Source: Clostridium sp. (GTDB taxonomy: Bacteria > Bacillota > Clostridia > Clostridiales > Clostridiaceae). From it: a stretch of DNA of 64,000 nucleotides. The notes below the pieces were generated by a model. It saw only the letters and a list, made by a program, of their open reading frames with translations, was not told the origin of the DNA and did not search any database. The stretch covers positions 2,171,958 to 2,235,957 of the forward strand of contig NZ_JAKVOI010000001.1 of the NCBI RefSeq assembly GCF_022482905.1, read 5' to 3'. Both the position numbers and the translations under genes were made by a program. Of this stretch, positions 2,760 to 58,008 are shown one piece after another. Position 1 is the first letter of the stretch; every line of letters starts with the position of its first letter.

Positions 2760-3770
<1,011 letters not shown>

Positions 3771-3790
3771 TTATATTTCTCCTTTCAATT

Positions 3791-4477
3791 TCACAATATT
3801 CCCTTTTCTTTCAAGCTTATATATTTTCCATTGCCTATTATCAAATGGTCAATGAGTTGTATTCCCAAAATTTCTCCACATTCATTCAATCTATATGTAA
3901 CCTTGATATCTTCGTTGCTTGGAGATGGATCCCCTGATGGATGATTGTGGCATACTATTATTGAGGCACTGCTCTTTTTAATGGCATCGTTGAAAACCTC
4001 CCTTGGATGTACTATGGAAGAATTCAAGCTGCCTATAAATACTCTCTTAACACCTATAACTATATTTTTCGTGTTTAGCATTATAACCACAAGATTCTCC
4101 TGTTTCAAGGATCTCATCTCTTTCATCACAAGCATGGCAGCATCTTTGGAATTACATATCTTATAACTATCACCATCTCTAAAAGATACAAATCTTTTTG
4201 AAAGTTCTACTACGGCCAAAAGTTTGGCGGCCTTTGCCTTTCCAATTCCATTTATGCTGACAAGCTCCTCCATTGTAGATTCCATGATTCCATTTAATCC
4301 ACCCTTATTATGTATAATCCTGCTGCTTAAAGACATTATATTTTCTCTCTTGCTTCCCGAGCCAAGGAGTACAGCCAAAAGTTCCACATTGGACAGTATT
4401 TCCGGGCCATATATGAAAAGTCTTTCCCTCGGTCTTTCATTTTCAGGTAAATCCTTGATTTTTAACATTCTATCCAT
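3791..4477 (-). CDS. radC: RadC family JAB-domain protein (UPF0758)
   Basis: 228-residue RadC-like protein. An N-terminal helix-hairpin-helix region (ELVSINGIGKAKAAKLLAV, about 70-88) suggests DNA binding. The C-terminal JAB/MPN domain has the metalloprotease-like signature VCHNHPSGDPSPSNED (about 175-190), with two histidines and an aspartate placed to bind zinc. The original link to radiation repair in E. coli was later withdrawn and the cellular role is unsettled. It sits between maf and mreB with 15-20 base gaps, the common clostridial arrangement. The ATG is set by an AGGGGATC site 7 bases upstream. Confidence 0.93.
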   Translation of the reverse strand: MDRMLKIKDLPENERPRERLFIYGPEILSNVELLAVLLGSGSKRENIMSLSSRIIHNKGGLNGIMESTMEELVSINGIGKAKAAKLLAVVELSKRFVSFRDGDSYKICNSKDAAMLVMKEMRSLKQENLVVIMLNTKNIVIGVKRVFIGSLNSSIVHPREVFNDAIKKSSASIIVCHNHPSGDPSPSNEDIKVTYRLNECGEILGIQLIDHLIIGNGKYISLKEKGIL

Positions 4478-4492
4478 ACAAGATCCCCTTAA

Positions 4493-5071
4493 CTATAGAT
4501 TTACCCCCATTCCCGTTAGCATTTCACGGAGCTTGTTAAGCGGAAGTCCTACTACATTATAATAGCATCCGTGAATTTTAGGTACAAATACTCCTCCATA
4601 TCCCTGAATTCCATATGCACCAGCCTTATCCTTATATTCTGATGTATTCAAGTATTTCTCTATCTGTTCATCCGATATATCAGAGAATCTAACAGTTGTT
4701 TTAACAAAATCCCTTTTTATAAGCCCTGAAGCTTTGTTTATAATTGCTACCCCGGAGTATACATCATGCTCATTTGCACTTAAAGATTTCAACATATTAA
4801 AGGCATCATCTCTGTCCCTTGGTTTACCAAGTATGTTTCCCCTGAAATATACAACAGTATCACACCCTATTATAATGGTATTCATTTCTCTCATCTTGCT
4901 GCATACATCCTGGGCCTTCCCCAAAGCCAAATTCATAACGTATTCGCCGCAATTTCCCCGGAAATCAATACTTTCTTCGCAGAAACTGCTTGCATATATA
5001 TCAAAATTATCTATTAGTTTCCCTAAAAGCTGTCTTCTCCTTATGGATGAGGAAGCCAACACAATTTTCAT
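4493..5071 (-). CDS. maf: Maf family nucleoside triphosphate pyrophosphatase
   Basis: 192-residue Maf/YhdE protein that hydrolyses non-canonical or surplus nucleoside triphosphates (dTTP, UTP and modified forms) to monophosphates. It shows the N-terminal ASSSIRRRQLL substrate loop, the GCDTVV metal-binding motif, GKPRDRDDAFNML, and the ending GCYYNVVGLPLNKL. A GTG three codons earlier is also possible, but the AGGGAA site is better spaced for the ATG chosen here. It is the second gene of the DUF4321-maf-radC-mre operon. Confidence 0.95.
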   Translation of the reverse strand: MKIVLASSSIRRRQLLGKLIDNFDIYASSFCEESIDFRGNCGEYVMNLALGKAQDVCSKMREMNTIIIGCDTVVYFRGNILGKPRDRDDAFNMLKSLSANEHDVYSGVAIINKASGLIKRDFVKTTVRFSDISDEQIEKYLNTSEYKDKAGAYGIQGYGGVFVPKIHGCYYNVVGLPLNKLREMLTGMGVNL

Positions 5072-5084
5072 ATTCTTCACTTCC

Positions 5085-5345
5085 CTAGTACCTTCTATAT
5101 AATATTATAGCCACAATTACGCCTATTATAGTCATTATATTGGCATTAAAATTTATTCCCAAAGTTATTGTCATAATTTTAAAACTCAATGAAAGAGGCT
5201 CCTTCATCCCTATTTCATATGAATTCTTTAAAAATTTCAAAACACTAAAGCTATTTCCCAATGCATCTCCTATAAGGCTTCCAGCTATTGCACCCAACAG
5301 TATAATAAACCATAAAAAAGCTGCATTTTTACCCGTCCCCTTCAC
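5085..5345 (-). CDS. DUF4321 family small membrane protein
   Basis: 86-residue hydrophobic protein with a membrane segment at about 10-25, an amphipathic middle that includes GMKEPLSLSFKIMTITLGI, and a second membrane segment at the C-terminus. It matches the DUF4321 family commonly found just upstream of maf in clostridia; its function is unknown. I choose the GTG at 5345 because an AGGGGG site lies 6 bases upstream. An ATG seven codons earlier has no ribosome-binding site. It is probably the first gene of the cell-shape operon. Confidence 0.75.
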   Translation of the reverse strand: MKGTGKNAAFLWFIILLGAIAGSLIGDALGNSFSVLKFLKNSYEIGMKEPLSLSFKIMTITLGINFNANIMTIIGVIVAIILYRRY

Positions 5346-5447
5346 GTAAATCCCCCTAATTAACAATATATCTAATATAGTTTATCATTTAATATAATTA
5401 TAAACAAGTGTATATATTATTGTTTAAAAAAATTTTTTATTTAATCA

Positions 5448-5494
5448 TAAAAGTGGCAGATATGATGTTAAATTACCCATACCAGCCACTTTTA
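5448..5494 (-). terminator. Imperfect hairpin terminator after the SPOR gene
   Basis: A 10-bp stem (TAAAAGTGGC with GCCACTTTTA) extended by a further imperfect stem, about 20 bases downstream of the SPOR gene stop codon. On the minus strand it is followed by an A/T-rich stretch with runs of T. It separates the SPOR gene from the maf-mre operon. Confidence 0.55.
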
Positions 5495-5516
5495 ATCATA
5501 CATACTTAAAAATAAT

Positions 5517-6245
5517 CTATTTTATTTTTTTGAGTATATTATATATATATATATAATTTTCTTCACAGTTATTCGGAGTAATGTTTCCCTGCATGCCTCC
5601 TATATGTTTTTTCAAATCATCCAGCAGGGCAAAATTTTTAGTGCTTCTATCTACATCCTTCAATGATGAACACCATTTTTTTAGATCATCGGTCTTTACA
5701 TATTCAACATCATTATCAGCAAACTTATTTAATATCTGCAGATAGGCACTTATTATTTCTACTATTTCAGTATTACACAAGCTATCCTTTTTTACAGTAA
5801 AGTTCATATTTGAGTTGTCAATTTTTTGTGCTGCAAGCGATTTTATTATATTCTTTGCATTGTCAGATGTATATATTCCAAGAAAAGTTCTTATCTTGCC
5901 ATTTTCTTCAACAAAAAATGGTGTTCCATATTTCAACAGCAGCTGTTTTTCTTTTGCTGCATTATTCTTGTCCTGATATATTCCTCCCTGCACTGCTGTA
6001 AATTTTACTTCTGTTCCATCTACCGCAGCCTTTTCATCACTTTTTCCTGTATCAGTGTTACTATGACTTATAGTTCTATCAGTATTATCCATGCTTTGGG
6101 AGGCCTCTTTGGAATCATAGCTGTTCATAAGCAGTTTAGACGCAGCAGTTCCTATAATAAACGCTGCAACAAGTATAATTGCTATCATAAATATAAAAGT
6201 TTTTGTACCTTTCTCCCTCTTGAGATCATATCGTGTGTAATTCAT
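5517..6245 (-). CDS. Membrane-anchored SPOR-domain protein
   Basis: 242 residues: a short basic cytoplasmic N-terminus, one membrane helix (about 17-38), a Ser/Asp/Lys-rich linker (about 40-75), then a SPOR-like fold at about 78-150. The SPOR region begins FTAVQGGIYQDKNNA and includes FVEENGKIRTFLGIYTSD. The remaining C-terminus is helical and unassigned. SPOR domains bind denuded glycan strands at division or sporulation septa, which fits its place next to the cell-shape operon. It has its own GAGGTG ribosome-binding site and is flanked by terminators, so it is probably monocistronic. Confidence 0.75.
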   Translation of the reverse strand: MNYTRYDLKREKGTKTFIFMIAIILVAAFIIGTAASKLLMNSYDSKEASQSMDNTDRTISHSNTDTGKSDEKAAVDGTEVKFTAVQGGIYQDKNNAAKEKQLLLKYGTPFFVEENGKIRTFLGIYTSDNAKNIIKSLAAQKIDNSNMNFTVKKDSLCNTEIVEIISAYLQILNKFADNDVEYVKTDDLKKWCSSLKDVDRSTKNFALLDDLKKHIGGMQGNITPNNCEENYIYIYNILKKIK

Positions 6246-6339
6246 TTTTTCACCTCATTTTTTCTAAATGTTTATACTATATTTATATATAAGTATCAGG
6301 TGAAAAAAATATTACCTTTTTAAGGCAATTTCATATAAA

Positions 6340-6378
6340 AAATCACTATCGATCTGTAAAATACTACAATAGTGATTT
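6340..6378 (-). terminator. Rho-independent terminator of the thr operon
   Basis: Perfect 10-bp stem AAATCACTAT/ATAGTGATTT, loop of about 19 bases, followed on the minus strand by a T-run (TTTTTTATATG). It lies 17 bases after the thrB stop. Confidence 0.8.
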
Positions 6379-6394
6379 AATTTCCTATATAAAT

Positions 6395-7297
6395 TTATTT
6401 CAAAAGCTTTACTCCATTCAAATCCGGTTCAAGCAAAATTACATTCCATTCATCTTCAAGTCCACTTAAAAACTTCTTAATTGAATTCATAAATTCACCT
6501 TTGTTCTCGTCAGCGATTACTGCCATTAACGTCGGCCCCGAACCACTTATAAATTCACCAACGGAACCCAGCTCTTTACATTCTTCAAAAATGAGTTCAC
6601 AATTTTTTATAAGATTTTTCCTATAAGGCTGATGAATTCTGTCCTGAAAACAGACCCTGAGTGTGTCAAGCTCACTGTTGTTCAAGGCATTTACAAGCAT
6701 TGCAGCCCTAGATACATTAAATATACAGTCTTCCTTTGAATAGGATTTAGGAAGAACCTTCCTTGAAAGTGCAGTATTTACTTCAAAAGAAGGAATCATC
6801 GCCACAAATTTCAACTGAAGTGGCAGGTTAACCCGTGAATAAGTTATTTTGTTATCTTCCTTTAGAGAGATTACCATGCCTCCCAATGCCGCAGGTGCTA
6901 CATTATCTGGATGGCCCTCTATTTCAGTAGCCAGCGAAATCAAGTCATCTATAGACATATTGCTGCCAATAATTGAATTTGCAGCTGCTATACCTCCAAC
7001 TATACAGGAAGAACTGCTGCCAAGCCCCCTTGACATTGGTATGTCACACTTTGTAACGTCTATTTTCACACCATCACAAAAATAATCCTGTCTTTCCATA
7101 GTAGTCTTTATACTCTTATATATTAAGTTATCTCTAAAATCTCCAGGAGCTCTAATTCCTTTATTGTATATCTCTGTTTCACCATTTATTTCCTCAACTT
7201 CAATTTCATTGTACAGATTTAGAGCCATTCCTAAAGTATCAAATCCCGATCCCATATTGGCAGTAGTGGCCGGTATTCTGACTTTAATTTTAGACAT
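6395..7297 (-). CDS. thrB: Homoserine kinase
   Basis: GHMP-family kinase of 300 residues that phosphorylates homoserine to O-phosphohomoserine, the substrate of threonine synthase. It shows the N-terminal PATTANMGSGFDTLGMAL, the GHMP ATP-binding loop MSRGLGSSSSCIVGGIAAAN (about 88-107), and the late GEFISGSGPTLMAVI motif. It has a strong GGGGAGG ribosome-binding site and lies 54 bases downstream of hom. The partner thrC is separate, at about 36-37 kb. Confidence 0.97.
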   Translation of the reverse strand: MSKIKVRIPATTANMGSGFDTLGMALNLYNEIEVEEINGETEIYNKGIRAPGDFRDNLIYKSIKTTMERQDYFCDGVKIDVTKCDIPMSRGLGSSSSCIVGGIAAANSIIGSNMSIDDLISLATEIEGHPDNVAPAALGGMVISLKEDNKITYSRVNLPLQLKFVAMIPSFEVNTALSRKVLPKSYSKEDCIFNVSRAAMLVNALNNSELDTLRVCFQDRIHQPYRKNLIKNCELIFEECKELGSVGEFISGSGPTLMAVIADENKGEFMNSIKKFLSGLEDEWNVILLEPDLNGVKLLK

Positions 7298-7351
7298 GTT
7301 ATATCCTCCCCTTTAACATTCAAGTTCATAAAATTCCAGCACGAAAAGAAA

Positions 7352-8593
7352 CTACTTGTCTAAAATCAACAATTTCTTTATGGATTCAACAAATTCACTT
7401 TGTTTTACAGCCTCCATGTATTTGTCAATTTCACATTCACTTTCCGCTTTTACAAAGGCAGCAACTTCATTTTCATCCTTTGAAACTGCATTGGAGAAAA
7501 TGTAACTGTTCCCAAAATTATCAGTAATGCTTTCAATAACCTTTATTCTGTCATTTGTCTTTACTCTGAGAAGCCATTTGCCTTCCGAGTCCCAGTTTTT
7601 ATTTACTTCTGCTTTTTCATCATTTAAGGAAATAACCTCATCTTTATGCATGATTATATCTGCAATATCAGCAAATACCGAACTTGCCGTAGGGAACATT
7701 CCCGCTCCTTTTCCAGAAAACATCACATCACCTACTGCATCGCCTTTCACTAAAATTGCATTGTACTCATCCTCAATTCTTCCAAGTACGGAATTTTCCT
7801 TTATCATAACAGGTCTCACAGATGCATATACACGGTCATTGTATTTTTTGCTGATTCCAAGAAGTTTTATGCTGCATCCTTCCATTTTTGCATATCTGAA
7901 ATCTTCCTGATCGATACAGGTAATTCCTTCTATTTTCATATCTTTCCAATACACTCTTTTATTATACGCTATAGTAGAAAGTATGGATAATTTTCTTGCC
8001 GCATCATAGCCCTTCACATCCGAATCAGGATTTGCCTCTGCAAATCCGAGTTTCTGAGCAAGCTTCAGCGCATCTTGATAATCCATATTTTCATGATTCA
8101 TTTTCGAAAGTATAAAATTAGTGGTACCATTTAATATGCACTCTATACTCTCTATTTCATTTCCAACAAGACAGTCATTCATTGATTTCAGTATAGGTAT
8201 TCCTCCTCCAACACTTGCTTCAAAATGAATTGTAACCCCATTCTGATTTGCCAGATTCAAAAGTTCATGCCCATATTCTGCTATCAAATCCTTATTGGCT
8301 GTAACAACATGTTTTTTCATTTTTAAAGCTCTCTTTACATATTCATAGGAGGGATTGAGCCCTCCCATAGCTTCTACAACTATATCAACTCTTTTTCTGA
8401 AAATATCCTCTATATTGTCGGTCAACAGGTTTTTATTCTTGCTGCCAACATGCTTTTCAATATTTCTAACTAAAATATTGGATATTTCAAGTTCCTCATT
8501 CAATCTGTTTTTAAATTTATCCTTATTTTTTGATATGAGTTCAGCTACCCCACTGCCTACAACCCCATATCCAAGCATAGCTATAACCGCCAT
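7352..8593 (-). CDS. hom: Homoserine dehydrogenase
   Basis: 413-residue NAD(P)-dependent enzyme that reduces aspartate semialdehyde to homoserine. It has an N-terminal Rossmann motif (MLGYGVVGSGVAEL), the VVTANKDLIAEYG and VGGGIPILKSM motifs, and the catalytic-domain signature LNGTTNFILSKM with GFAEANPDSDVKGYDAARK. A C-terminal ACT-like region (about 345-413) is suited to threonine feedback, as in the 430-residue Firmicute enzymes. Its start has an AAGGGAGG site. It lies downstream of the ACT-domain regulator and upstream of thrB. Confidence 0.97.
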   Translation of the reverse strand: MAVIAMLGYGVVGSGVAELISKNKDKFKNRLNEELEISNILVRNIEKHVGSKNKNLLTDNIEDIFRKRVDIVVEAMGGLNPSYEYVKRALKMKKHVVTANKDLIAEYGHELLNLANQNGVTIHFEASVGGGIPILKSMNDCLVGNEIESIECILNGTTNFILSKMNHENMDYQDALKLAQKLGFAEANPDSDVKGYDAARKLSILSTIAYNKRVYWKDMKIEGITCIDQEDFRYAKMEGCSIKLLGISKKYNDRVYASVRPVMIKENSVLGRIEDEYNAILVKGDAVGDVMFSGKGAGMFPTASSVFADIADIIMHKDEVISLNDEKAEVNKNWDSEGKWLLRVKTNDRIKVIESITDNFGNSYIFSNAVSKDENEVAAFVKAESECEIDKYMEAVKQSEFVESIKKLLILDK

Positions 8594-8622
8594 GTTTATA
8601 TGCCTCCCTTTTATTTATATAT

Positions 8623-8651
8623 AAAAATCCAGCCTTATTAAGGCAGATTTT
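8623..8651 (-). terminator. Hairpin between the ACT-domain gene and hom
   Basis: Stem AAAATC..GCCTT/AAGGC..GATTTT with one bulged position, followed on the minus strand by TTTTTATA. It lies directly after the ACT gene stop and before hom, so it may end some transcripts while letting others read into hom-thrB. Confidence 0.6.
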
Positions 8652-8654
8652 ATA

Positions 8655-9092
8655 TTACTCAACTGCTACAAGTCTCACACTTACTACACTGTCTATAGAT
8701 TCCAGTTCCTCAACCAGCTGGTTGGTGTCAACAGAAAGCTTTGACGCATCAAAAGTTATAGAAACACTGGCTGCATTGTTTATAGGTATATCCTGATTTA
8801 TAGTGAGTATGTTTCCATGATTTTGTGCTATCTTGTCAATTATCTTTGACAGCGTACCTGCTTTGTGCAAGATCATAAACCCAAGTGTAATCTTGTGCCC
8901 CACTGTACCTTCCGACATTGCAAACACTGAATCCTTGTATTTATAATAAGTGCTTCTGCTTATTCCAACCTCTTTCGTTCCCTGTGATATGTCCTTCACC
9001 TTTCCGGTCCTGAGAAGTTCCTTAACTTTCACAACTTTTAGAAATACGTCTGGAAGGATCTCCGAATCGATTATCAAAAATTTATTGTTCAT
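8655..9092 (-). CDS. UPF0735 ACT-domain protein (PheB-like)
   Basis: 145 residues: an N-terminal helix-turn-helix-like segment (VKDISQGTKEVGISRSTYYKYKD split around residues 32-54) and a C-terminal ACT domain (about 70-143, with GTLSKIIDKIAQNHGNILTINQD). It belongs to the UPF0735 family, called PheB in Bacillus, which sits next to homoserine or phenylalanine pathway genes. A likely role is an amino-acid-sensing regulator of hom-thrB, but that is inference. The AAGGAAG site just before the ATG supports the start. Confidence 0.85.
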   Translation of the reverse strand: MNNKFLIIDSEILPDVFLKVVKVKELLRTGKVKDISQGTKEVGISRSTYYKYKDSVFAMSEGTVGHKITLGFMILHKAGTLSKIIDKIAQNHGNILTINQDIPINNAASVSITFDASKLSVDTNQLVEELESIDSVVSVRLVAVE

Positions 9093-21110: not shown

Positions 21111-22499
21111 CTAATCTAATATATCTCCAGAATTGAGGATTCCATTTGGATCAAAGACTTTCTTTATCCCATCCATAATTTCAATTTCCTTATTGCTGAA
21201 TTGAAGGTTCATATGTTTTTTTCTCGTCTTTCCTGTTCCGTGTTCGGCCGTAACAGTTCCTCCATATTTTATAGCAGTTTCATACATCTTCTCTTTGAGT
21301 TCTTCATAATAAGCAGGCAGCTGTCCATTATCACCCATGATAAAATTGTGAATATTTCCGTCTGCTATGTGTCCAAGAGATACTATGGAATTTTCATATT
21401 GCTCCGCAAACTCGGCCACATCATCAAGAAAATCAGGCACGGATGACGGCGGAACCGCTATATCAAGTGCATCTGCTATATTGTCCCTATATGGTCCATA
21501 GGCATTGCTCCTTATTTCCAATATATGCCTTTGTTCTTTAGGTGTCTCTGCTATAATACTGTCTACAGCACCATTTTTTTCACATATATCCACGATCTTC
21601 TCACTATTGGCATAGAGTTCATCTTCATTAGCTGCATCAATTATAAATATCAGATCCACGGAACCTTTTGAAGCGGGCCAGACAGTATCCAGCTGCTCTG
21701 CAGATTTATTGGCAATAATTCTGTCCATATACTCTACTGCCAGCGGTGTAATCCCTTCCTGTATTACATCAGGTACTGAATCACAAGCTTCTCTCCTCGT
21801 GTTGAATGAAACTATAAGTGTACCTGAATACTGGCTTCTAGCATAAAGCCTCAATGTAACTTCAGTTACAATTCCAAGAGTACCTTCACTTGAAATTATC
21901 ATATTGAGCAGATCATATCCCATATTGTTCTTAAGAAGCTTTCCACCGGCCTTTATTATTTCTCCCGTAGGAAGAACTACCTCCAGTTCCTTGATATGAT
22001 TCCTCATGACTCCGTGTTTTACAGCTCTTGTACCTCCGGCATTGGTTACTACCATTCCTCCAACCTGTGCACCTTCATCTCCAGGATGTATAGGAAAGAA
22101 TAGTTTTCCCTGCTTGTTGAGAACTTCGAGAAGCTGTGCAAGAGTAACCCCTGCCTGGACAGTAATCATCAAATTCTTTTCATCCAGATCAACAACTTTG
22201 TTTAATCTCTCCAATGATAAAATTATGGAAGGCTTGGTAGGTATGGCTCCACCGACAACTCCCGTACCTCCACCTCTTACAGTTACAGGTACAAGTGCTT
22301 CATTAGCATACTTGAGTATATCCGATATCTGCCCTGCTGATTCAGGCTTGACCACTATACAGTTTTCCGATGCACTCGGTCGGAGAAGTGGTTCAGTCTC
22401 ATCATAAAGATATCCTTGAATATGAGACAGATCACTTGTAACCCAATCATCTCCCACAATTTTCTTTAGATTATTTTCAACTACATTAATTTCCAACAT
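21111..22499 (-). CDS. FAD-linked 2-hydroxyacid dehydrogenase (GlcD/LctD family)
   Basis: 462 residues. An N-terminal PCMH-type FAD-binding domain shows VPVTVRGGGTGVVGGAIPT, FFPIHPGDEGAQVGGMV and ISSEGTLGIVTEVTL. The C-terminal FAD oxidase domain has GHIADGNIHNF and TAEHGTGKTRKKHM. With EtfB and EtfA in the same operon it matches the lactate dehydrogenase/Etf complex of Acetobacterium, in which NAD-dependent lactate oxidation is driven by co-oxidising ferredoxin. The family also oxidises glycolate, 2-hydroxyglutarate and other 2-hydroxy acids, so the substrate is open. The upstream T-box argues for a link to amino-acid, probably leucine, metabolism. No lactate permease gene is adjacent. Confidence 0.88.
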   Translation of the reverse strand: MLEINVVENNLKKIVGDDWVTSDLSHIQGYLYDETEPLLRPSASENCIVVKPESAGQISDILKYANEALVPVTVRGGGTGVVGGAIPTKPSIILSLERLNKVVDLDEKNLMITVQAGVTLAQLLEVLNKQGKLFFPIHPGDEGAQVGGMVVTNAGGTRAVKHGVMRNHIKELEVVLPTGEIIKAGGKLLKNNMGYDLLNMIISSEGTLGIVTEVTLRLYARSQYSGTLIVSFNTRREACDSVPDVIQEGITPLAVEYMDRIIANKSAEQLDTVWPASKGSVDLIFIIDAANEDELYANSEKIVDICEKNGAVDSIIAETPKEQRHILEIRSNAYGPYRDNIADALDIAVPPSSVPDFLDDVAEFAEQYENSIVSLGHIADGNIHNFIMGDNGQLPAYYEELKEKMYETAIKYGGTVTAEHGTGKTRKKHMNLQFSNKEIEIMDGIKKVFDPNGILNSGDILD

Positions 22500-22511
22500 T
22501 TACACTCCAAT

Positions 22512-23510
22512 CTAACAGTTGCTTATTTGTAAACTGCCTTGCTTTATTTTATTTATTAAATCAGGAATAACCTTGTATATATCATCTACTATTCCATAAT
22601 CAGCTACATTGAATATTGGAGCTGATGGATCCGTATTGATTGCCACTATGAAATCAGATTCTTTCATTCCTGCAATATGCTGCGGAGCTCCAGAAATTCC
22701 ACAAGCTATATATACTTTTGGTTTAACCCTGTTTCCACTGTATCCGACCTGGAACTCCTTGGATATGAATCCATCATCCACGATTTCCCGGGTAGCACCA
22801 ACCAACCCGCCCAGCAGATCTGCCAATTCCTTGATCATGCTCATATCTTCAGCCTTTTTCAATCCTTTTCCTGCCGCAACAACTACATTGGCATCGGATA
22901 TATCCACATCCTGTGCCTTCAGTTCATCCAATACCTCCACAAGCCTGTTTCCCGATTTTATTGGCTCTATAGAAACAACCTCACCCTTGTTTTCATCATT
23001 TCTAGGGCTTTCATCGAACTCCTTATACCTCACCGTAGCCATCTGCGGATAGGTGTCTGTCTTTATATGGGCCAGTATATTTTCACTGAAAGCAGGTCTT
23101 ATCTGAACAAGTTTTCCATCCTCATCTATTTCCAATCCTGTACAATCTGCCGTCAATCCGGTTTTCAGGGCTGCTGCCAGCCTGGGTGCTATAGATCTTC
23201 CAAGGGTTGTTGCACCAATAAGACATATTTCAGGTTTGATCTTTTTTATGAGATCTTCCAAATTTGCTTCATAAATCAGCTCTTCCGGCTGGTTAAATGC
23301 ATCATCAGCTGAATAAAATACCTTGTCGGCACCTCTGTATATCAGCTCCTCGGGTTTCATGCCTTCAGGTCCCAAAAGCACACTGTAAACAGGAGAATTC
23401 AATTTATCTGCAAGCTGTCTTGCCTTGCCAATTAATTCATAGCTTACCTTATGGATTTTTCCCTTTTTCTGCTCAGCAAACACGAGTATACCTTTATATT
23501 CTTTATTCAT
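22512..23510 (-). CDS. etfA: Electron transfer flavoprotein, alpha subunit
   Basis: 332 residues. The C-terminal FAD-binding domain is intact: GYSGNRVKPKVYIACGISG, QHIAGMKESDFIVAINTD and PIFNVADYGIVDD. It passes electrons between EtfB and the FAD dehydrogenase encoded next. It lacks the N-terminal ferredoxin-like extension that some lactate-type EtfA proteins carry, which distinguishes it from the longer LctC form. It lies 1 base after etfB, with the ribosome-binding site inside the etfB end. Confidence 0.95.
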   Translation of the reverse strand: MNKEYKGILVFAEQKKGKIHKVSYELIGKARQLADKLNSPVYSVLLGPEGMKPEELIYRGADKVFYSADDAFNQPEELIYEANLEDLIKKIKPEICLIGATTLGRSIAPRLAAALKTGLTADCTGLEIDEDGKLVQIRPAFSENILAHIKTDTYPQMATVRYKEFDESPRNDENKGEVVSIEPIKSGNRLVEVLDELKAQDVDISDANVVVAAGKGLKKAEDMSMIKELADLLGGLVGATREIVDDGFISKEFQVGYSGNRVKPKVYIACGISGAPQHIAGMKESDFIVAINTDPSAPIFNVADYGIVDDIYKVIPDLINKIKQGSLQISNC

Positions 23511-23511
23511 G

Positions 23512-24321
23512 TTAAACCTCCACCTCCAAAATCTTCTTTTTCATAAACAAACTTATAAGTTCTTCCTCTGCCCTTTCAGAGTCCTGCTGCCTGTATATTT
23601 TACCCTGTCTCTTTTCTATCTGAGGCACTTCTATTTTCTTGACTTTTGTAGGTGAACCCTTGAATCCAACAGTATCATTATCCAGATATTCCTTTAAATC
23701 CTCAAACTTTATAACTTTTATTTCCGCTTTTCTTGCTTTCATTTTATCTTTGAATGAAGGCAGTCTTGGTTGATTTATGTCCTTTGTAACTGTAATCAGC
23801 CCGGGCAGTTTTATATTTTTCAAATAGGTTCCTTCCCATATTTCCGAGCAGACCTTTATACTGCCCTCACCTACATCTGTAATTTTGCTTATATAGCTTG
23901 CATGCGGTACGTCTAAAAATTCAGCAACTTCTGGTCCAATCTGTCCTGTGTCACCATCTACGGTTTTCTCTCCAGCAATTATCAAACTGCAGTTGCCAAT
24001 TTTCTTAATGGCGCTTGCCAGTATAAATGACGTAGCTTTTGTATCCGATCCTCCAAATTTTGCATCGCTGACCAATATTCCCTCATCAGCTCCCCTTGCA
24101 ATACATTCCTTCAAAGCCTGTTCTGCATTTGGTGGTCCCATACTTATGGCTGTAACTTTAGCATCAATTTTTTCACTTATTTGAACTGCAGCTTCAAGTG
24201 CATTCAAGTCAAATGGATTGATTTCTGTTCCGGCAGACTTTCTGTCCACCACTCCCTTTTCTCTATCAAATTTTACTCTTTCCATATCTGGAACTTGTTT
24301 AATCAAGACCACAATATTCAT
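23512..24321 (-). CDS. etfB: Electron transfer flavoprotein, beta subunit
   Basis: 269 residues, first gene of the operon. It shows IVVLIKQVPDMERVKFD, NPFDLNALEAAVQ and the AGEKTVDGDTGQIGPEVAEFL loop, whose DGDTGQ form is typical of Etfs able to bind NAD(H) and bifurcate electrons. The ATG is chosen because AGGTGA lies 7 bases upstream; a TTG one codon earlier is also possible. The 110 bases before it hold only a small hairpin (GGTATG/CATACC, 24357-24372) after the T-box terminator. Confidence 0.95.
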   Translation of the reverse strand: MNIVVLIKQVPDMERVKFDREKGVVDRKSAGTEINPFDLNALEAAVQISEKIDAKVTAISMGPPNAEQALKECIARGADEGILVSDAKFGGSDTKATSFILASAIKKIGNCSLIIAGEKTVDGDTGQIGPEVAEFLDVPHASYISKITDVGEGSIKVCSEIWEGTYLKNIKLPGLITVTKDINQPRLPSFKDKMKARKAEIKVIKFEDLKEYLDNDTVGFKGSPTKVKKIEVPQIEKRQGKIYRQQDSERAEEELISLFMKKKILEVEV

Positions 24322-24439
24322 CAACTATTCACCTATCCCTTTTATGAATTTGAATTGGTATGCTATCATACCTCTCTTCTATATTATAAATACAAGTTCT
24401 CATCTTAATTTTATGAATTCATCTCCTAAAATTGGGTAT

Positions 24440-24674
24440 AAAAAAAACAGATTCTTTTCGCTGGGGCGAAAAATCTGCCGCGGTACCACCCAATTTTTTA
24501 CTTAATTAACATAACGGCTCTCTACAGCCGGCACAGTCTACTTACAATTCAACCTGCAGTTCCAGGATGAGTTTCAATACGCGTACCTACAGGGCTTGCA
24601 CCATTTTCCTGCTCTCTTCAAAGTATGTCACATATCTACTTGATCCTGTCATAACCTCTATCTTTATTTATTAA
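24440..24674 (-). promoter_or_regulatory. T-box leader of the etfBA/FAD-dehydrogenase operon (probably Leu)
   Basis: On the minus strand the T-box core GGGTGGTACCGCG lies at 24479-24491. It is followed by the terminator CAGATT/AATCTG with internal TTCGC-CCCA-GCGAA and eight T. Stem I is visible: bottom helix CAGGAT/ATCCTG (24643-24648 with 24563-24568), an AGTAG/GAA loop-E pair, and an upper helix ATATGTG/CGCGTAT. Next to the bottom helix the specifier reads CTC (Leu) at 24569-24571, followed by A. Counting from the GAA instead gives ACT (Thr). The bulge TGGT matches discriminator A, as in both tRNA-Leu genes of this window, favouring Leu. Uncharged tRNA should switch the operon on. Confidence 0.92.
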
Positions 24675-52136: not shown

Positions 52137-52207
52137 CTATATTGTCTCCTTAAAATATATATTCAATTATATATTACCATATAGTTGCTGAATTTTTTCA
52201 TAAAAAA

Positions 52208-52242
52208 ATTTGATATTGAAATCAATACTCTCAATATCAAAT
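52208..52242 (-). terminator. Terminator of the SAM-riboswitch operon
   Basis: Stem ATTTGATATTGA/TCAATATCAAAT, 11-base loop, followed on the minus strand by TTTTTTTA, directly after the LarA-family stop codon. Confidence 0.9.
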
Positions 52243-52248
52243 CTTCTT

Positions 52249-53520
52249 TTATATGGGTAGCGTGCTGGCACCATATGGCATAAGTACAACGTCCGGATTG
52301 TCACTGCTCAATGTGTATGCAGTCTCAACTGCTTCATCAAGTGACTTCACTGGAATGAAGCCAAATTTACGTACAACCTCATCTTCAAGAGATGACAAGA
52401 AAAGAACCTTTCTATTTTTTGCAGTATACAAGGTTTTATAAGCTGCATAACCAGGAACTGTAAAATTTCTCTTCAAAGCTTTCTCCATATCTTCAAGAGT
52501 CTCATATTGGAACCATTTCATAAATTCATCTGCACCCAGTCCTTCTATACACTGTGCAGCTATAACCAACACGCTGTCCTGCTTTCCTGCATACAGGGCA
52601 TTATCAATTGTTTTAACCGTCTGGTACAGATTTATGTCTTTGGGGTATCCACCTGAAGATACAACAGTAATATCCGCCTTGTTCTTAATTTTCACTCCAT
52701 AAAGCTGTCTGGTTATGTTACATCCTTCAAGCCAGGCCTTTTCGAAATCTCCGGCTACAAATTTGACGAATTTTCCATCGGTATCAAGTACTGCATTGAC
52801 TAAAAAATCCGTTGAAATCTTTCTGCATATTTCTGTAATGTCTTCACGCATAGGATTCCCCTTAATCTTATTTGGCCCTGCACTGAGGTTGAGTCCGGAA
52901 TTTTCTCCGCTGTTAAAAACCAGTCTATGATTACTTTGAATGGTTTGGAAACCTGCAACACCCGGAACAACACTTTTAGCCCCACCGCCAAAGCCTGCAA
53001 AAAGATGAAATGTGATGCCTCCTGTAAGTATAACCCTGTCTGCCTCAATCACTTTTCTGTTTAAGTATACAGGAGTACCAAAGCTCGATACTCCCATGTA
53101 CCTAAGTTCATCTTCATTTTTGCTGTCATGGTTGTATACTTTTATTCTGCGGTACAATTTCTCCCCCACAATATCTCTCTTTTCGTCTTCTGAGGCAGCC
53201 CTGTGAGTACCCGTTGCAACTATGGCCGAAATATCCTCATCCTTTATTCCAAAAGAATTCAGATAATTAACTATATAGATAAGGAACTCTGCAGTTTTTA
53301 TCCATGACCTGGTTATGTCCGAAACTACAAATATGACCTTTTCCCCCGGTATTACTATCTGCCTCAACGGCTTTGAATTTATTGGATTTTCAAGAGATGC
53401 AACAATTTCTGCCTCTACATCCTGAACATGTCCGGCCTTGCCTGGAAGTACATTGTCTATTTTCCCTTCCATATTTATTTCAAGTATATCATTTCCATAT
53501 TTAAAATTATACAAACTCAT
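52249..53520 (-). CDS. LarA-family nickel-dependent 2-hydroxyacid racemase
   Basis: 423 residues. Key LarA residues are conserved: Asp and Arg in VSDITRSW (about 68 and 71), His in ATGTHR (about 106), and FHLFAGFGGGAKSVVPG with the catalytic His (172) and the lysine (182) that carries the nickel-pincer cofactor. A late SNHRLV adds another histidine. The superfamily racemises lactate, malate, 2-hydroxyglutarate, phenyllactate and others. Here the gene is third in a SAM-riboswitch operon with an aminotransferase and MetQ, which points to a methionine-related hydroxy acid. larB, larC and larE are not in the window. The start is set by AGAGG 8 bases upstream. Confidence 0.85.
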   Translation of the reverse strand: MSLYNFKYGNDILEINMEGKIDNVLPGKAGHVQDVEAEIVASLENPINSKPLRQIVIPGEKVIFVVSDITRSWIKTAEFLIYIVNYLNSFGIKDEDISAIVATGTHRAASEDEKRDIVGEKLYRRIKVYNHDSKNEDELRYMGVSSFGTPVYLNRKVIEADRVILTGGITFHLFAGFGGGAKSVVPGVAGFQTIQSNHRLVFNSGENSGLNLSAGPNKIKGNPMREDITEICRKISTDFLVNAVLDTDGKFVKFVAGDFEKAWLEGCNITRQLYGVKIKNKADITVVSSGGYPKDINLYQTVKTIDNALYAGKQDSVLVIAAQCIEGLGADEFMKWFQYETLEDMEKALKRNFTVPGYAAYKTLYTAKNRKVLFLSSLEDEVVRKFGFIPVKSLDEAVETAYTLSSDNPDVVLMPYGASTLPI

Positions 53521-53531
53521 CTGCATCACCT

Positions 53532-54344
53532 CTAAAATGCTGCTATAACAGAGCCCTTGAAATGCTCATCTATGTATTTCTTAACTTCGTCTGACTGATA
53601 GATTTTGATCAATTTCTTTACATTTTCCGCATCTTTGTTGTCAGGTCTTGCAGCTATAATATTAATCCAGGGAGAATCCTTCGGCTCCTTGAATATGGCA
53701 TCCTTATTTGGATCGAGTTTGGCCTGTATTGCATAATTGGTATTTATCGCCGCAACCGCCACATCACTTAACGAACGCGGAACCATCGGAGCTTCAAGCT
53801 CAAGAAACTGGATATGTTTAGGGTTTTCAGCTATGTCCTTTATGGTAGCCTTTAAGCTTACGCCACTTTTCAACTTTATAACCTTCCCTTTTTCAAGAAG
53901 CATAAGTGCTCTTGCTTCATTAGTAGGATCATTCGGCAGTGAAATCTTATCCCCATCCTTCAGTTGAGCCAGAGATTTCAGTTTACTGGAATATATGCCC
54001 ATAGGAAAAGTTACTGCATTGGCAACCTTTACTAGATTCATATTGTGATCCTTGTTGAACTGCTTCAAGTATGGTTCATGCTGATATATATTTACATCCA
54101 GCTGTTTTTCATTTAACTGCGTATTAGGCTGAACATAATCATTAAAACTAGTATACTCCACATTCATCCCTTGCTTTTTTGCAACTTCTTTAACCTTTTG
54201 TATTATTTCCTCGTGAGGTCCTGCTGTAACTCCTACTTTTATGGTATTGGCTTCAGAATCTGATTTCTGTGATGTACTTCCACAACCTGAAAATACAACT
54301 GTTGTTAATAATACCGACAATAAAATACTTCCAATTTTTTTCAT
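53532..54344 (-). CDS. metQ: Methionine-binding lipoprotein (MetQ/NlpA family)
   Basis: 270 residues. Lipoprotein signal with FSGC at about residue 20, then an NlpA fold: IKVGVTAGPHEEIIQKVKE, NIYQHEPYLKQFNKDHN and ISLPNDPTNEARALMLLE. It captures methionine or an analogue for the MetNP transporter. No metN or metP is adjacent, so it either feeds a distant transporter or has a variant ligand. It lies 23 bases after the aminotransferase gene, under the SAM riboswitch. Confidence 0.9.
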   Translation of the reverse strand: MKKIGSILLSVLLTTVVFSGCGSTSQKSDSEANTIKVGVTAGPHEEIIQKVKEVAKKQGMNVEYTSFNDYVQPNTQLNEKQLDVNIYQHEPYLKQFNKDHNMNLVKVANAVTFPMGIYSSKLKSLAQLKDGDKISLPNDPTNEARALMLLEKGKVIKLKSGVSLKATIKDIAENPKHIQFLELEAPMVPRSLSDVAVAAINTNYAIQAKLDPNKDAIFKEPKDSPWINIIAARPDNKDAENVKKLIKIYQSDEVKKYIDEHFKGSVIAAF

Positions 54345-54367
54345 AATAGTCTCCTTTTAACATAAAT

Positions 54368-55540
54368 TTATTCACTATAAAATTCAGCTTTTTCTTTAAG
54401 TGTTTTCAACTTTTCAATGGCTTCCAGAAGAGTATCGTCCTTTTTTGCATAATGAAGCCTTATAAAATTATTCACATTTTTCTTAAAAAAACTTGAACCT
54501 GGTACTGCACCTATTTTAACTTCTTTAGCCAGCCATTCACAAAATTTCAAGTCATTTTTTACATTGAACTCCGATACATCTATCATTACATAATAAGCTC
54601 CATTGGGTTTTACATACTTTAGGCCAGCTTCATCCAATCCAGCTAGGAAAAGATCCCTTTTTTTCATATACATGTTTTTCAGCCAGTCATAATATTCATC
54701 AGGCATTTTAAGTCCTGCAATTGCTGCTTCCTGAAGAGGTGCAGCCGCTCCAACCGTCAAAAAATCATGCACCTTTCTAACATTTTCTATTATCCTTTCA
54801 TCTGCTATAACATATCCCAACCTCCATCCTGTTATGGAATATGTCTTGGAAAGAGAACTGCAACTCAAAGTCCTGTTAAACATTCCTGGAAGTGAAGCAA
54901 AATAAACATGTTTATATGGATCCATAACAATATGCTCGTACACTTCATCCGTTATTACAAATGTGTCATATTTTTCAGCCAGACTCGCAATATACTGGAG
55001 CTCTTCCAAAGTAAAAACCTTACCTGTAGGATTTGATGGATTGCACAGTATAAGAGCTTTAGGTTTCTGCCTGAATGCATCCTCCAATTCTTTTCTATCA
55101 AACGAAAACTCCGGCGGATAAAGAGATACATGTATTGGATCTGCCCCACTCAATATTGCATCTGCAGCATAGTTTTCATAAAACGGAGAGAATACTATAA
55201 CCTTGTCACCTGGATCACACACCGTCATGACAGATGCCATCATGGCCTCGGTACTACCGCAGGTAACAGCAATTTGTGTTTCAGGATCTATATCAATCCC
55301 CATAAATTTCTTCTGCTTTTCTGCAAGTGCCTCTCTAAAGTTTTGTGCACCCCAGGTAATTGCATATTGATGAGGTCCTTTGTCCGCAGCAGCTTTAAGT
55401 GCCTCTTTTATTTCTTTTGGAGGATCAAAATCAGGAAAACCCTGTGATAAATTAATAGCCCTATATTTATTTGATATCCTTGTCATTCTTCTTATAACAG
55501 AATCTGTAAAATTAACCAACTTACTGCTTAGTTCGGGCAA
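54368..55540 (-). CDS. Class I/II PLP aminotransferase (methionine-regulated)
   Basis: About 390 residues, fold-I aminotransferase: INLSQGFPDFDPP, LILCNPSNPTGKVFTLEEL, TDEVYEHIVMD, PLP lysine in CSSLSKTYSITGWRLGYVI, and the C-terminal arginine in NNFIRLHYAKK. It resembles the methionine/aromatic/glutamine aminotransferases of the YbdL/MtnE/PatA type. First gene behind the SAM-I riboswitch, so a role in making methionine from 4-methylthio-2-oxobutanoate, or the reverse, is likely. TTG at 55540 is favoured, 10 bases after AAAGGAT; a GTG three codons earlier is too close. Confidence 0.9.
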   Translation of the reverse strand: MPELSSKLVNFTDSVIRRMTRISNKYRAINLSQGFPDFDPPKEIKEALKAAADKGPHQYAITWGAQNFREALAEKQKKFMGIDIDPETQIAVTCGSTEAMMASVMTVCDPGDKVIVFSPFYENYAADAILSGADPIHVSLYPPEFSFDRKELEDAFRQKPKALILCNPSNPTGKVFTLEELQYIASLAEKYDTFVITDEVYEHIVMDPYKHVYFASLPGMFNRTLSCSSLSKTYSITGWRLGYVIADERIIENVRKVHDFLTVGAAAPLQEAAIAGLKMPDEYYDWLKNMYMKKRDLFLAGLDEAGLKYVKPNGAYYVMIDVSEFNVKNDLKFCEWLAKEVKIGAVPGSSFFKKNVNNFIRLHYAKKDDTLLEAIEKLKTLKEKAEFYSE

Positions 55541-55593
55541 GAAAAACACATCCTTTCAAAATTTTATTGATATATAAAATCTATTCTTTAAAC

Positions 55594-55725
55594 TAAAAAA
55601 ACCTCTTTACGATAAAAGAGGTATCTTCCTCTTATCTTTCAGTTAAAACTGCAGGAATTAGCACCTGGCAATAATTGCTGGCTGCTGGGTTTCATTGGGC
55701 CTTTCCCTCCGCCTCTCTAGATAAG
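55594..55725 (-). promoter_or_regulatory. SAM-I (S-box) riboswitch with transcription terminator
   Basis: On the minus strand the aptamer runs from CTTATCTAGAGAGGCGGAGG (55706-55725) through GGCCCAATGAAACC and AGGTGCTAATTCCTGCAG to the closing AGATAAG (55631-55637), all hallmark S-box elements. The expression platform follows: terminator ACCTCTTT/AAAGAGGT with a T-run (55594-55622), and a competing antiterminator, GATAAGAGG with CCTCTTTTATC. High SAM should turn the aminotransferase-metQ-larA operon off. Confidence 0.97.
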
Positions 55726-55750
55726 ATAAACCTATTAAATTACAGGTATG

Positions 55751-55779
55751 ATTATATTATTTACATAGAACAAAGTCAA
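55751..55779 (-). promoter_or_regulatory. Promoter of the SAM-riboswitch operon
   Basis: On the minus strand TTGACT (55774-55779), a 17-base spacer, and TATAAT (55751-55756). The -35 box contains the stop codon of the lysR gene. Confidence 0.88.
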
Positions 55780-56654
55780 GCCCTTTCTATATCTGAAATC
55801 ACATTTAAAAAGTTTCTGGAAGCGGCAGACATATACCTGTCCTTTACACATATTGCAGCTATACTCGTTTCTAAGCTTGACTCATGAATTACTCTATAAG
55901 TTAAACCGGATGCCTTTACTATATCCAGAGCAGTCATTGGAACCAAGGCAATCCCAATACCGGATTCCGCCCATAGCAGTGTAGTTCTTGCATCATCACT
56001 CTTGCATATTATCTCGGGCATAAAATCCATATTATGGCATGCCTCAAATATGATTTTTTCAAACCTTCTATATATGATAAGCGGTTTACCCATAAGCTCC
56101 TTTAGAGTTATTGATTTTCTATCCGGGAAATAGTCCAGATCATCTCTAAAAACTGATATCATAGGCTCTCTGGAAAGAATTTTTATGCTTAGTCCTTCCT
56201 TGTTAAACGGTGTTCTGACTATCCCTATATCTATCACTCCACTGTTCAATATTTCAAGTATTCTATATGTATTTCCCTCCCATACCTCAAAGTTTACTTT
56301 TGGATATATACTATGAAATCTTTCTATTATATTTGGAAACAGTGTAGCTCCTGAAGATGAAACAGTTCCAATTGACAATGTTCCTTTGATGCCTTCGTTG
56401 AAATCTTTCAATTCTTTTATGGTGGAATCCACCAATTCCAATATCTGTTCAGCCCTGTTCTTTAATATTTCCCCTGCATCCGTCAGATGAATTTTTTTAT
56501 TTCCCCTATCCATGAGTTTAGTTCCCAGCTCCTCTTCCAAAAGCTTCAAGTGATAACTGAGAGGCGGCTGTGCTATATTCAGTTTTTTAGCCGCTCCTGT
56601 TATCTTCCCTTCTTCTGCAATTGTAAGAAAATACCTAAGCTGCTTAATATCCAT
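55776..56654 (-). CDS. LysR-family transcriptional regulator
   Basis: 292 residues. N-terminal winged HTH (MDIKQLRYFLTIAEEGKITG, AAKKLNIAQPPLSYHLKLLE) and a C-terminal periplasmic-binding-like effector domain (about 90-290). Divergent from the TSUP/DUF1634 pair, which it probably controls from the 150-base gap; a perfect ATAAGCTTAT palindrome lies there at 56738-56747. The effector is unknown. The ATG is about 11 bases after GAGGTGA. Confidence 0.93.
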   Translation of the reverse strand: MDIKQLRYFLTIAEEGKITGAAKKLNIAQPPLSYHLKLLEEELGTKLMDRGNKKIHLTDAGEILKNRAEQILELVDSTIKELKDFNEGIKGTLSIGTVSSSGATLFPNIIERFHSIYPKVNFEVWEGNTYRILEILNSGVIDIGIVRTPFNKEGLSIKILSREPMISVFRDDLDYFPDRKSITLKELMGKPLIIYRRFEKIIFEACHNMDFMPEIICKSDDARTTLLWAESGIGIALVPMTALDIVKASGLTYRVIHESSLETSIAAICVKDRYMSAASRNFLNVISDIERA

Positions 56655-56803
56655 GAAGAATATCACCTCGATAATTAAATAATAAAAGTAATTATACAAT
56701 TTTTATATACACATAATAGATAATAAATATTTTTAATATAAGCTTATCATTGATATAATAATACTTGAAAATCAAATTTTGTTCAATACAGGGAGATGAT
56801 ATT

Positions 56804-57640
56804 TTGTCACTGATAGTACTGGAAATCTTGTTGATATCTGTTGTGGCAGGCATAGCCGGATCTATTCTTGGCCTGGGCGGGGGAACAGTAATTACTCCAG
56901 CATTGACACTTATATTTGGAATTGATATAAGATATGCCATAGGAGCAAGCATAATTTCAGTAATAGCAACCTCAAGCGGTGCTGCTATAGCTTATGTGCG
57001 GGATGAAATGACCAACATAAGAGTTGCCATGTTTCTTGAAATAGCAACAACAGTCGGAGCTATAACCGGTGCCTTTCTAGGTGGAATCATAAATGCCAAC
57101 TACCTCTATGTGTTATTCGGACTACTTCTTCTATATTCCGCTTTTGCAATGTTCAAAAATGGCAAGACTGAATTGCCTGATAACGTTATAGAGCATCCAC
57201 TTGCACAAAAACTTAAATTAAACGGCCAATATTATGACGATGTTTTAAAACAACCCGTTGATTATAAAGTTGCAAACGTGCCGAGTGGATTCGGTGTAAT
57301 GTATGGTGCAGGAATTATATCAGGGCTTCTTGGTATAGGAAGTGGGAGCTTCAAGGTTATGGCCATGGATCTGTTTATGAAACTTCCAATGAAGATATCA
57401 AGTGCCACAAGTAATTTTATGATGGGAGTCACCGGTGCCGCCAGTGCCGGAGTGTTTTTCCTGAGGGGTGATATAGATCCCAAAATTGCAGGTCCGGTAG
57501 CACTTGGTGTACTTGCAGGTGCTACCATTGGGGCACGTATTATGAAGCGAATGAAAAACAAGACTATAAGAAAGATATTCATACCCTTTCTCGTATATAT
57601 AGCACTTCAAATGATGTATAAAGGAGTGATTGCATTATAA
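56804..57640 (+). CDS. TSUP (TauE/SafE) family membrane transporter
   Basis: 278 residues, about eight membrane helices with the internal duplication of the family: GSILGLGGGTVITPALTLIF in the first half and GIISGLLGIGSGSFKVMAMD in the second. Family members export sulfite, sulfonates or other organic anions. It is translationally coupled to the DUF1634 gene (TAATG overlap) and divergent from lysR. TTG start 9-10 bases after GGGAG. Confidence 0.9.
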   Translation: MSLIVLEILLISVVAGIAGSILGLGGGTVITPALTLIFGIDIRYAIGASIISVIATSSGAAIAYVRDEMTNIRVAMFLEIATTVGAITGAFLGGIINANYLYVLFGLLLLYSAFAMFKNGKTELPDNVIEHPLAQKLKLNGQYYDDVLKQPVDYKVANVPSGFGVMYGAGIISGLLGIGSGSFKVMAMDLFMKLPMKISSATSNFMMGVTGAASAGVFFLRGDIDPKIAGPVALGVLAGATIGARIMKRMKNKTIRKIFIPFLVYIALQMMYKGVIAL

Positions 57641-58008
57641 TGAATGATAAAAAATTGAAAGAAAATACAAGAGAGATGGAAAAGATAATAAGCACGTTTT
57701 TATTTGTAGGAGTCCTGACAAGCTCTGCCGTTATAATAATAGGACTTATAATGTTTCTAATCTCTGGAAGCAGCGGGTATCCCGGCAACTTTTATCCGAC
57801 TTATCCCTTTGAGATACTCCATGGATGCATGGCCTTGAAACCTTACTCCATAATACTCTTAGGACTTATGCTGTTGATAGCCATACCAATATTCAGAGTT
57901 GGTATTTCCATATTAGTATTTTTTAAGGAAAAGGATTTTCTGTATGTAAAGATCACAGCTGTTGTATTCATAATATTGATAATAAGTTTGTTCATGGGCA
58001 AAAATTGA
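57640..58008 (+). CDS. DUF1634 membrane protein
   Basis: 122 residues with three membrane helices. The family member is recognisable from FLFVGVLTSSAVIIIGLIMF and KPYSIILLGLMLLIAIPIFR. DUF1634 proteins are usually encoded next to TSUP transporters and probably form part of the same membrane unit. Start overlaps the TSUP stop by one base. Confidence 0.88.
   Translation: MNDKKLKENTREMEKIISTFLFVGVLTSSAVIIIGLIMFLISGSSGYPGNFYPTYPFEILHGCMALKPYSIILLGLMLLIAIPIFRVGISILVFFKEKDFLYVKITAVVFIILIISLFMGKN

Follow-up and report, generated by a model that had tools for sequence, protein, structure and literature searches.

Within a 64,000-nucleotide stretch of Clostridium sp. DNA (contig NZ_JAKVOI010000001.1; hereafter the window), the minus strand carries a SAM-I (S-box) riboswitch, of the class named for S-adenosylmethionine (SAM), followed by genes for an aminotransferase, the substrate-binding lipoprotein MetQ and a LarA-family nickel-pincer racemase. 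The original prediction had read this arrangement from the letters alone, and model searches bear it out: the aptamer (55629..55727) reaches 83.3 bits against an RF00162 gathering score of 44.4, and the genes have the family matches given below. The same aptamer scores 97.0 bits with a covariance model that we built from the 24 S-boxes found in this genome, one of them being the window S-box. A sigma-70-like promoter, TTGACT-17-TATAAT (55751..55779, minus strand), lies about 24 nucleotides upstream and is called by consensus match only (11 of 12 positions), while a terminator-like hairpin (55601..55622, minus strand) directly after the aptamer forms the expression platform. Both calls count by position only, as promoter-like sites between 52000 and 56000 are not enriched (10 versus a shuffle mean of 14.1) and terminator-like hairpins there are no commoner than in shuffles. 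The minimum free energy fold of the leader (-41.3 kcal/mol, z -2.1) contains P1 as well as the terminator hairpin. By these sequence features the leader is a SAM-I riboswitch with a terminator platform, and a response to SAM is predicted. S-boxes as a class permit expression at low SAM; the genes behind this one would accordingly be expressed under such conditions and would serve to gather methionine. Just after larA, an A/T-rich inverted repeat with a T run (52202..52241, minus strand), read by eye, may mark the end of a common transcript; our terminator scan demands three G-C pairs and hence does not call it.

The last gene of the row (52249..53529, minus strand) encodes a LarA-family nickel-pincer 2-hydroxyacid racemase, with 580.5 bits to the LarAH10 family (NF052525, cut-off 540), 228.8 bits to Lar_N (PF09861) and 75.9 bits to LarA_C (PF21113). 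By longest open reading frame (ORF) it follows metQ by 2 nucleotides; as a ribosome-binding-like stretch overlaps the metQ stop, 53520 is the likelier start, and the longest-ORF starts in this operon are probably a few codons too long. MetQ itself (53532..54344, minus strand) is a MetQ/NlpA lipoprotein that passes TIGR00363 (278.9 bits, cut-off 228.85) and falls under the narrower PRK11063 cut-off (288.5 versus 374). Six of the seven residues that contact methionine in Neisseria meningitidis MetQ (taken from PMC6739813) are identical in the window protein, and the seventh is changed from F to Y. We considered a MetQ altered so as to exclude the alpha-amino group and rejected it, since the three residues in contact with this group are kept; with the methionine-binding residues in place, the cargo may be methionine, its hydroxy analogue or both. 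The first gene (54368..55549, minus strand, its start probably a TTG at 55540 rather than that of the longest ORF) encodes a class I pyridoxal phosphate aminotransferase whose nearest solved relative by sequence is YbdL (1u08). It lies below the NCBIfam methionine aminotransferase cut-off (NF006569, 350.9 versus 420 bits), and for a possible methionine-aminotransferase-like role the evidence is the YbdL relationship and the S-box control.

The search for LarA homologues downstream of S-boxes that the original prediction had proposed was made in overlapping sets of 206 genomes at the family level, 225 of the order, 391 of the class and 398 of the phylum, the latter two drawn evenly from larger groups, with further searches around three outlying matches (17, 5, 20 and 257 genomes). 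Of the 68 family-level matches that scored at least some 386 bits, a threshold that excluded weaker ones resembling lactate racemase, 64 were examined in their gene context, as were 37 of 45 at the phylum level besides the window. After two repeats were dropped (L038 and L040, of L005 and L006), 118 LarA loci were compared: 15 of one clade, 102 others that are LarAH10-like, and the canonical LarA of the window's genome. The clade has an SH-aLRT support of 100 in a 117-row tree built by a quick method, its other 14 members being 57-73% identical to the window LarA and all remaining proteins at most 44% identical. Our own covariance model detects an upstream S-box in the orientation of larA in 12 clade loci out of 15, spread over five family-level groups, and in none of the 102 others, 95 of which have at least 3 kb of upstream sequence; the presence or absence of the S-box needs two changes on the quick-method tree. 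One locus with a broken larA (L091) is outside the tree and the pocket counts below but among the 102 checked for S-boxes. Rfam confirms the S-box in all 12 loci, each of which also has a terminator-like hairpin and T run behind the aptamer (by a permissive script with no shuffle control; for the first of two aptamers in L253 the hairpin was read separately). This terminator is overlapped by the first gene of L243 and of L283 if the longest ORF is taken, so the true start there is probably downstream. No S-box precedes larA in the clade loci of BL-3 (L006), L042 and L288. The S-box as a mere chance neighbour of larA was considered and rejected; the S-boxes of L065, L066, L082, L085, L086 and L260 lie on the strand opposite larA. 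A riboswitch-linked LarA subfamily is thus real and conserved.

The 12 S-box operons differ in composition around a constant end. Four, those of the window, C. algifaecis (L005), L037 and L253, have the order S-box, aminotransferase, metQ, larA, with two tandem S-box attenuators in L253 (163-480), each with its own terminator-like hairpin. Two (L243 and L283) insert metN and metI before the aminotransferase, two (L281 and L282) have metN, metI, metQ and larA, and three (L285, L286 and L287) have metQ and larA only, while in L180 the riboswitch stands directly before larA with no importer gene beside it. In 11 of the 12, then, metQ is the gene immediately before larA (gaps of at most 23 nucleotides by longest ORF); metNI-like genes are part of four operons and the aminotransferase of six. 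The metNI assignments come from family scans in L281 (MetN 392 bits against 500, MetI 211 against 212, both under the cut-off) and L243 (MetI 215 against 212), and from similarity or reading by eye in L282, L283 and L121. The conserved core is riboswitch, MetQ and LarA (11/12). The aminotransferase was rejected as a core partner, given its presence in only half of the operons and the S-boxes that its orthologues have elsewhere without LarA: of 30 orthologue loci examined with 1.5 kb flanks, 16 have an upstream S-box, and only three of these, in the window, C. algifaecis and G114, are LarA operons. In G149, an S-box leads metNI, the aminotransferase and metQ in a row that has no larA. From these variants we infer that the racemase joined, or stayed with, a methionine-import operon. 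Elsewhere in the window's genome, one S-box at about 1277 kb leads metNI-like genes without metQ and is parted from the canonical larA (1270 kb) by other genes and a long gap, and another at 265 kb leads a MetQ-like gene (218.8 bits against 228.85).

What the racemase acts on is approached through its residues and its pocket. The key LarA residues are all present, as had been claimed (R74, H109, H175, K185 and H201, for R75, H108, H174, K184 and H200 of LarA1), and the catalytic His pair and the Arg, Lys and His that bind the nickel-pincer nucleotide (NPN) are unchanged in all 15 clade rows. The best solved-chain match is the malate racemase Mar2 (261 bits), and the protein is under the NCBIfam malate racemase cut-off. 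Lactate racemase was rejected as well (297.2 versus 460 bits): at the LarA1 positions F175, F176, W358 and T359, mapped via alignments to solved LarAs and tied to specificity in PMC11770544, the window has L-F-Y-A instead of F-F-W-E/Q. The genome's separate canonical LarA, which adjoins a permease, Etf genes (read by eye) and a GlcD-type dehydrogenase, has the LAR quartet F-F-W-E. L-F-Y-A occurs in all 12 S-box LarAs and in BL-3, and in none of 102 other rows (101 LarAH10-like proteins and the canonical LarA); the two remaining clade members, both without an S-box, have V-F-F-V (L042) and I-F-Y-A (L288). Common ancestry accounts for part of this conservation. The position of LarA1 W358 (Y361 in the window) is Y in 14 clade rows and F in one, and F or Y here goes with hydrophobic 2-hydroxyacid racemases (PMC11770544, section 6). 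The clade pocket is hydrophobic and lacks the signatures that the paper gives for lactate, malate, 2-hydroxyglutarate and gluconate enzymes. LarAH10, LarAH52 and LarAH66 are the hydrophobic 2-hydroxyacid racemases named there, active on many such acids and preferring linear over branched aliphatic chains, and the true substrate of LarAH52 and LarAH66 may not have been identified (PMC11770544). A methionine-related hydrophobic 2-hydroxy acid is the best-fitting predicted substrate of the window LarA. In particular, 2-hydroxy-4-methylthiobutanoate (HMTB, also abbreviated MTHB) is a linear isostere of 2-hydroxycaproate.

The constant pairing of MetQ with LarA points to an imported compound whose configuration at C2 matters, and the LarAs of known activity convert 2-hydroxy acids, which makes HMTB the best candidate. 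It is a natural intermediate of dimethylsulfoniopropionate synthesis made by algae and bacteria (PMC10989797). We consider it somewhat probable that the operon scavenges methionine when SAM is low and that its LarA is a D/L-HMTB racemase serving salvage. In such a scheme, the genes being presumably co-transcribed, MetQ and a metNI-like pair encoded elsewhere would import methionine and/or HMTB, and LarA, with its nickel-pincer nucleotide, would interconvert D- and L-HMTB and so open the whole pool to a stereospecific 2-hydroxyacid dehydrogenase. As a racemase leaves the oxidation state unchanged, such a dehydrogenase is needed before the aminotransferase; encoded outside the operons, it would yield 2-oxo-4-methylthiobutanoate, which the operon aminotransferase may then transaminate, in the direction of methionine. 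The salvage route of aminotransferase, MetQ and racemase that was first proposed thus keeps its conserved riboswitch operon but not its self-sufficiency, given an aminotransferase that half of the operons lack and an oxidation step absent from all of them; the guess of HMTB as the LarA substrate is plausible on sequence grounds.

The control of LarA by an amino-acid-specific leader is not confined to methionine. In ten other LarAH10-family loci a T-box over the Rfam gathering score leads an operon that ends in, or runs into, LarA; Rfam was applied to 31 of the 102 non-clade loci, partly picked for a T-box core, so that ten is not a rate. All 102 were scanned for the core motif itself (at most one mismatch, within 2.5 kb upstream), which lies on the larA strand in eight (250 kb), versus six loci in 2.48 Mb elsewhere, L039 and L041 coming from Rfam only. 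The specifier of a T-box is the triplet before a conserved purine, a rule that we checked on six T-boxes: those of thrS (ACC), argS (AGA), leuS (CTC, by eye), BrnQ (ATC and GTA) and a 2-oxoacid oxidoreductase set (ATC, by eye). Read in this way, four T-boxes (L048, L063, L066 and L081) are of the Ile type (ATC) and precede an IlvE-type transaminase and larA; three (L051, L064 and L070), and less surely L039 and L041 with a one-base spacing difference, are of the Phe type (TTC) and precede an SSS-like symporter (below its family cut-off) and larA; and one (L254) is of the Trp type (TGG) and precedes TrpP and larA. Two candidates were not counted: the core in L250, with no Rfam match in 801 bases, is either a 3' half or chance, and the T-box in L053 heads the genes of a 2-oxoacid oxidoreductase, where an ORF on the other strand comes before larA. 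A fifth IlvE-larA locus (L065) has no T-box over the gathering score. Leader, partner and, by analogy, racemase substrate would name one amino acid each, as with Trp T-box and TrpP, Ile T-box and IlvE, or S-box and MetQ, and the wiring of the LarAH10 family to single amino acids looks general. Methionine control, once taken to be foreign to LarA, is a real linkage and belongs to a wider set in which leaders specific for an amino acid govern members of this family. We give even chances to the broader idea that anaerobic Firmicutes possess leader-specific hydroxy-acid salvage modules (Met by S-box; Ile, Phe and Trp by T-box), in which the leader would turn on a nickel-pincer racemase and a matching transporter or aminotransferase and so make both 2-hydroxy enantiomers a source of the amino acid, the window holding the methionine module with a dedicated HMTB racemase.

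Several observations weigh against an HMTB racemase in methionine salvage. The 12 S-box LarAs come from a single clade and so do not count as 12 independent events, and the genomes G133, BL-3 and G1092 have close LarAs without an S-box. The BL-3 larA stands in an S-box-free row (L006, 553-8275) with genes for a MetQ-like lipoprotein, MetN-like and MetI-like proteins, a sugar-acid-dehydratase-like enolase-superfamily protein, a PaaK-like coenzyme A (CoA) ligase and an enoyl-CoA hydratase; an importer together with CoA-dependent enzymes suggests another use, and a clade whose members can differ in function. None of the 12 S-box-larA operons showed a dehydrogenase, and by its sequence MetQ appears not to have given up amino acids. 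LarC, the NPN synthesis protein that was searched for genome-wide, was found in 13 of the 15 clade genomes, the window's included, and was not recognisable in two that have the operon, G985 and G805, the latter a single contig of 98% completeness. The pocket quartet, which we rejected as a full substrate read-out, fails on its own to name the substrate, since the LarAs behind Phe T-boxes and two of those behind Ile T-boxes have LLFI alike; either regulation changes faster than the quartet or the enzymes are promiscuous. The best reported substrates do not resemble HMTB, being D-mannonate (D-mannonate/D-gluconate) for LarAH10 and 2-hydroxy-4-oxo-4-phenylbutyrate for LarAH52 (PMC11770544), and genomic context is not always helpful to determine LarA activity (PMC7583248). 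The main texts of these two papers contain neither 'methylthio' nor a naming of HMTB.

Such promiscuity, known from the characterised hydrophobic 2-hydroxyacid racemases and in keeping with an LLFI quartet common to Ile- and Phe-controlled relatives, raises the question of whether the window LarA is a broad enzyme with another main substrate (such as 2-hydroxycaproate or 2-hydroxyisocaproate), the S-box signalling a general need for amino acids. We think this rather unlikely, as each kind of leader has its own neighbour (MetQ/MetNI-like for the S-box, TrpP for the Trp T-box and IlvE for the Ile T-box) and L-F-Y-A is fixed in all S-box loci despite the divergence of the other 11 from the window LarA (57-73% identity). 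It is also conceivable, though improbable, that LarA acts in repair, recapturing HMTB made in the cell by side reduction of 2-oxo-4-methylthiobutanoate rather than imported HMTB; the many S-box aminotransferases outside LarA operons (13 of the 16) and the absence of an adjoining importer gene in L180 are what such a role would lead one to expect, whereas the adjacency of metQ and larA in all other operons favours import.

Two further explanations seem to us very improbable. Were LarA to racemise D-methionine itself, as the first nickel-pincer amino-acid racemase, with MetNIQ importing the D-form, then an aminotransferase could well be absent from half of the operons, and E. coli MetNI-Q does take up both L- and D-methionine (PMC12357092). 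The same E. coli MetQ, however, prefers L-methionine 1000-fold (PMC12357092), the LarA substrates given in PMC11770544 and PMC7583248 are 2-hydroxy acids, and on chemical grounds a protonated amine would be a poor substrate for hydride transfer. Alternatively, larA might be a passenger that happened to land behind metQ in one ancestor and has since been retained with no methionine function. A single clade does allow a single founding event, but the linkage has outlasted divergence to 57-60% identity and repeated changes in operon make-up, in which metNI, the aminotransferase and metQ may each be present or absent, and in L180 the riboswitch serves larA alone.

Other genes at or near these loci touch on the same themes. 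Directly upstream of the window S-box lie a LysR gene and a divergent TauE/SafE permease gene (55776-58008), an arrangement kept in C. algifaecis, while in L042 larA is still beside TauE but without LysR, S-box, aminotransferase or metQ. A T-box with a CTC (Leu) specifier (24459-24661) leads genes for EtfB, EtfA and a GlcD-type FAD dehydrogenase (21111-24661, minus strand) in the window, for which leucine-starvation control of 2-hydroxyisocaproate oxidation is predicted from sequence; this suggests that the organism puts 2-hydroxyacid oxidation under amino-acid control, though of leucine by its codon. The set is a first candidate for the dehydrogenase that the HMTB scheme requires. L250 has a row of GlcD, GlcF, LarA and a symporter (3462-8971), where the T-box core and a hairpin lie between a HisC-like gene and GlcD, with no stem I found. 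Besides a full LarC at 2826935, the window's genome contains another match to LarC (G000:C1:1945773-1946207), which is partial and has a stop codon in frame. In seven loci of one genus (L082-L088), a distant LarA stands beside larE, the latter identified by family scan in L085 and by clustering in the rest; an S-box-led O-acetylhomoserine (OAH) sulfhydrylase gene precedes larE in three of them, and an aminotransferase of the window type is divergent from the LarA in three and broken in a fourth. Lastly, S-boxes precede clusters of nitrogenase-like component-1 genes in the window's genome (L124, 6068-19501; 1.090-1.103 Mb), with a NifH-type protein over its cut-off, two component-1 genes below all nif cut-offs when scanned with NCBIfam, a radical SAM/FeMo-co protein and a gene that by eye looks like one for an OAH sulfhydrylase. 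We presume that this cluster resembles the methylthio-alkane reductase systems for anaerobic methionine salvage.

If HMTB is indeed the substrate, the operon would show how anaerobes, barred from a standard methionine salvage pathway that uses oxygen (PMC6302742), can use the hydroxy analogue of methionine, and would point to enzymes useful for single-enantiomer production. The family is met here in a new regulatory and metabolic setting, and its leader RNAs give codon-level substrate predictions: HMTB, 2-hydroxy-3-methylvalerate, phenyllactate and indole-3-lactate. The methionine hydroxy analogue is fed to livestock, as a racemate. To our knowledge, no nickel-pincer enzyme has been linked to methionine homeostasis before, and an HMTB racemase would be the first. 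The LarA family is known, and the S-box wiring and predicted substrate are new as far as literature searches on riboswitch or S-box with LarA show; 'riboswitch' and 'T-box' are absent from the main texts of PMC11770544 and PMC7583248 and 'MetQ' from that of PMC11770544, although Table S1 of PMC7583248, on gene contexts, could mention metQ.

Among known systems, the closest are the hydrophobic 2-hydroxyacid racemases LarAH10, LarAH52 and LarAH66, with which the window clade shares the LarAH10 model, the catalytic His pair, the NPN residues and Y at the LarA1 W358 position, and from which it differs in SAM-I control, linkage to metQ and the quartet L-F-Y-A, LarAH10-like proteins outside the clade being at most 44% identical. 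The lactate racemase LarA of the lar/lct type has the same domains and cofactor residues, but the window protein is under its cut-off and has another quartet. Similarly, the S-box metNIQ operons and S-box aminotransferases of Firmicutes have the same SAM-I attenuator, MetQ, MetNI-like genes and YbdL-like aminotransferase, whereas the last gene of the window operon encodes a nickel racemase. Finally, T-box operons for amino-acid transport and synthesis are likewise headed by a starvation-specific leader RNA that selects one amino acid, and the ten loci described here differ from them by ending in, or running into, a racemase of the LarAH10 family.

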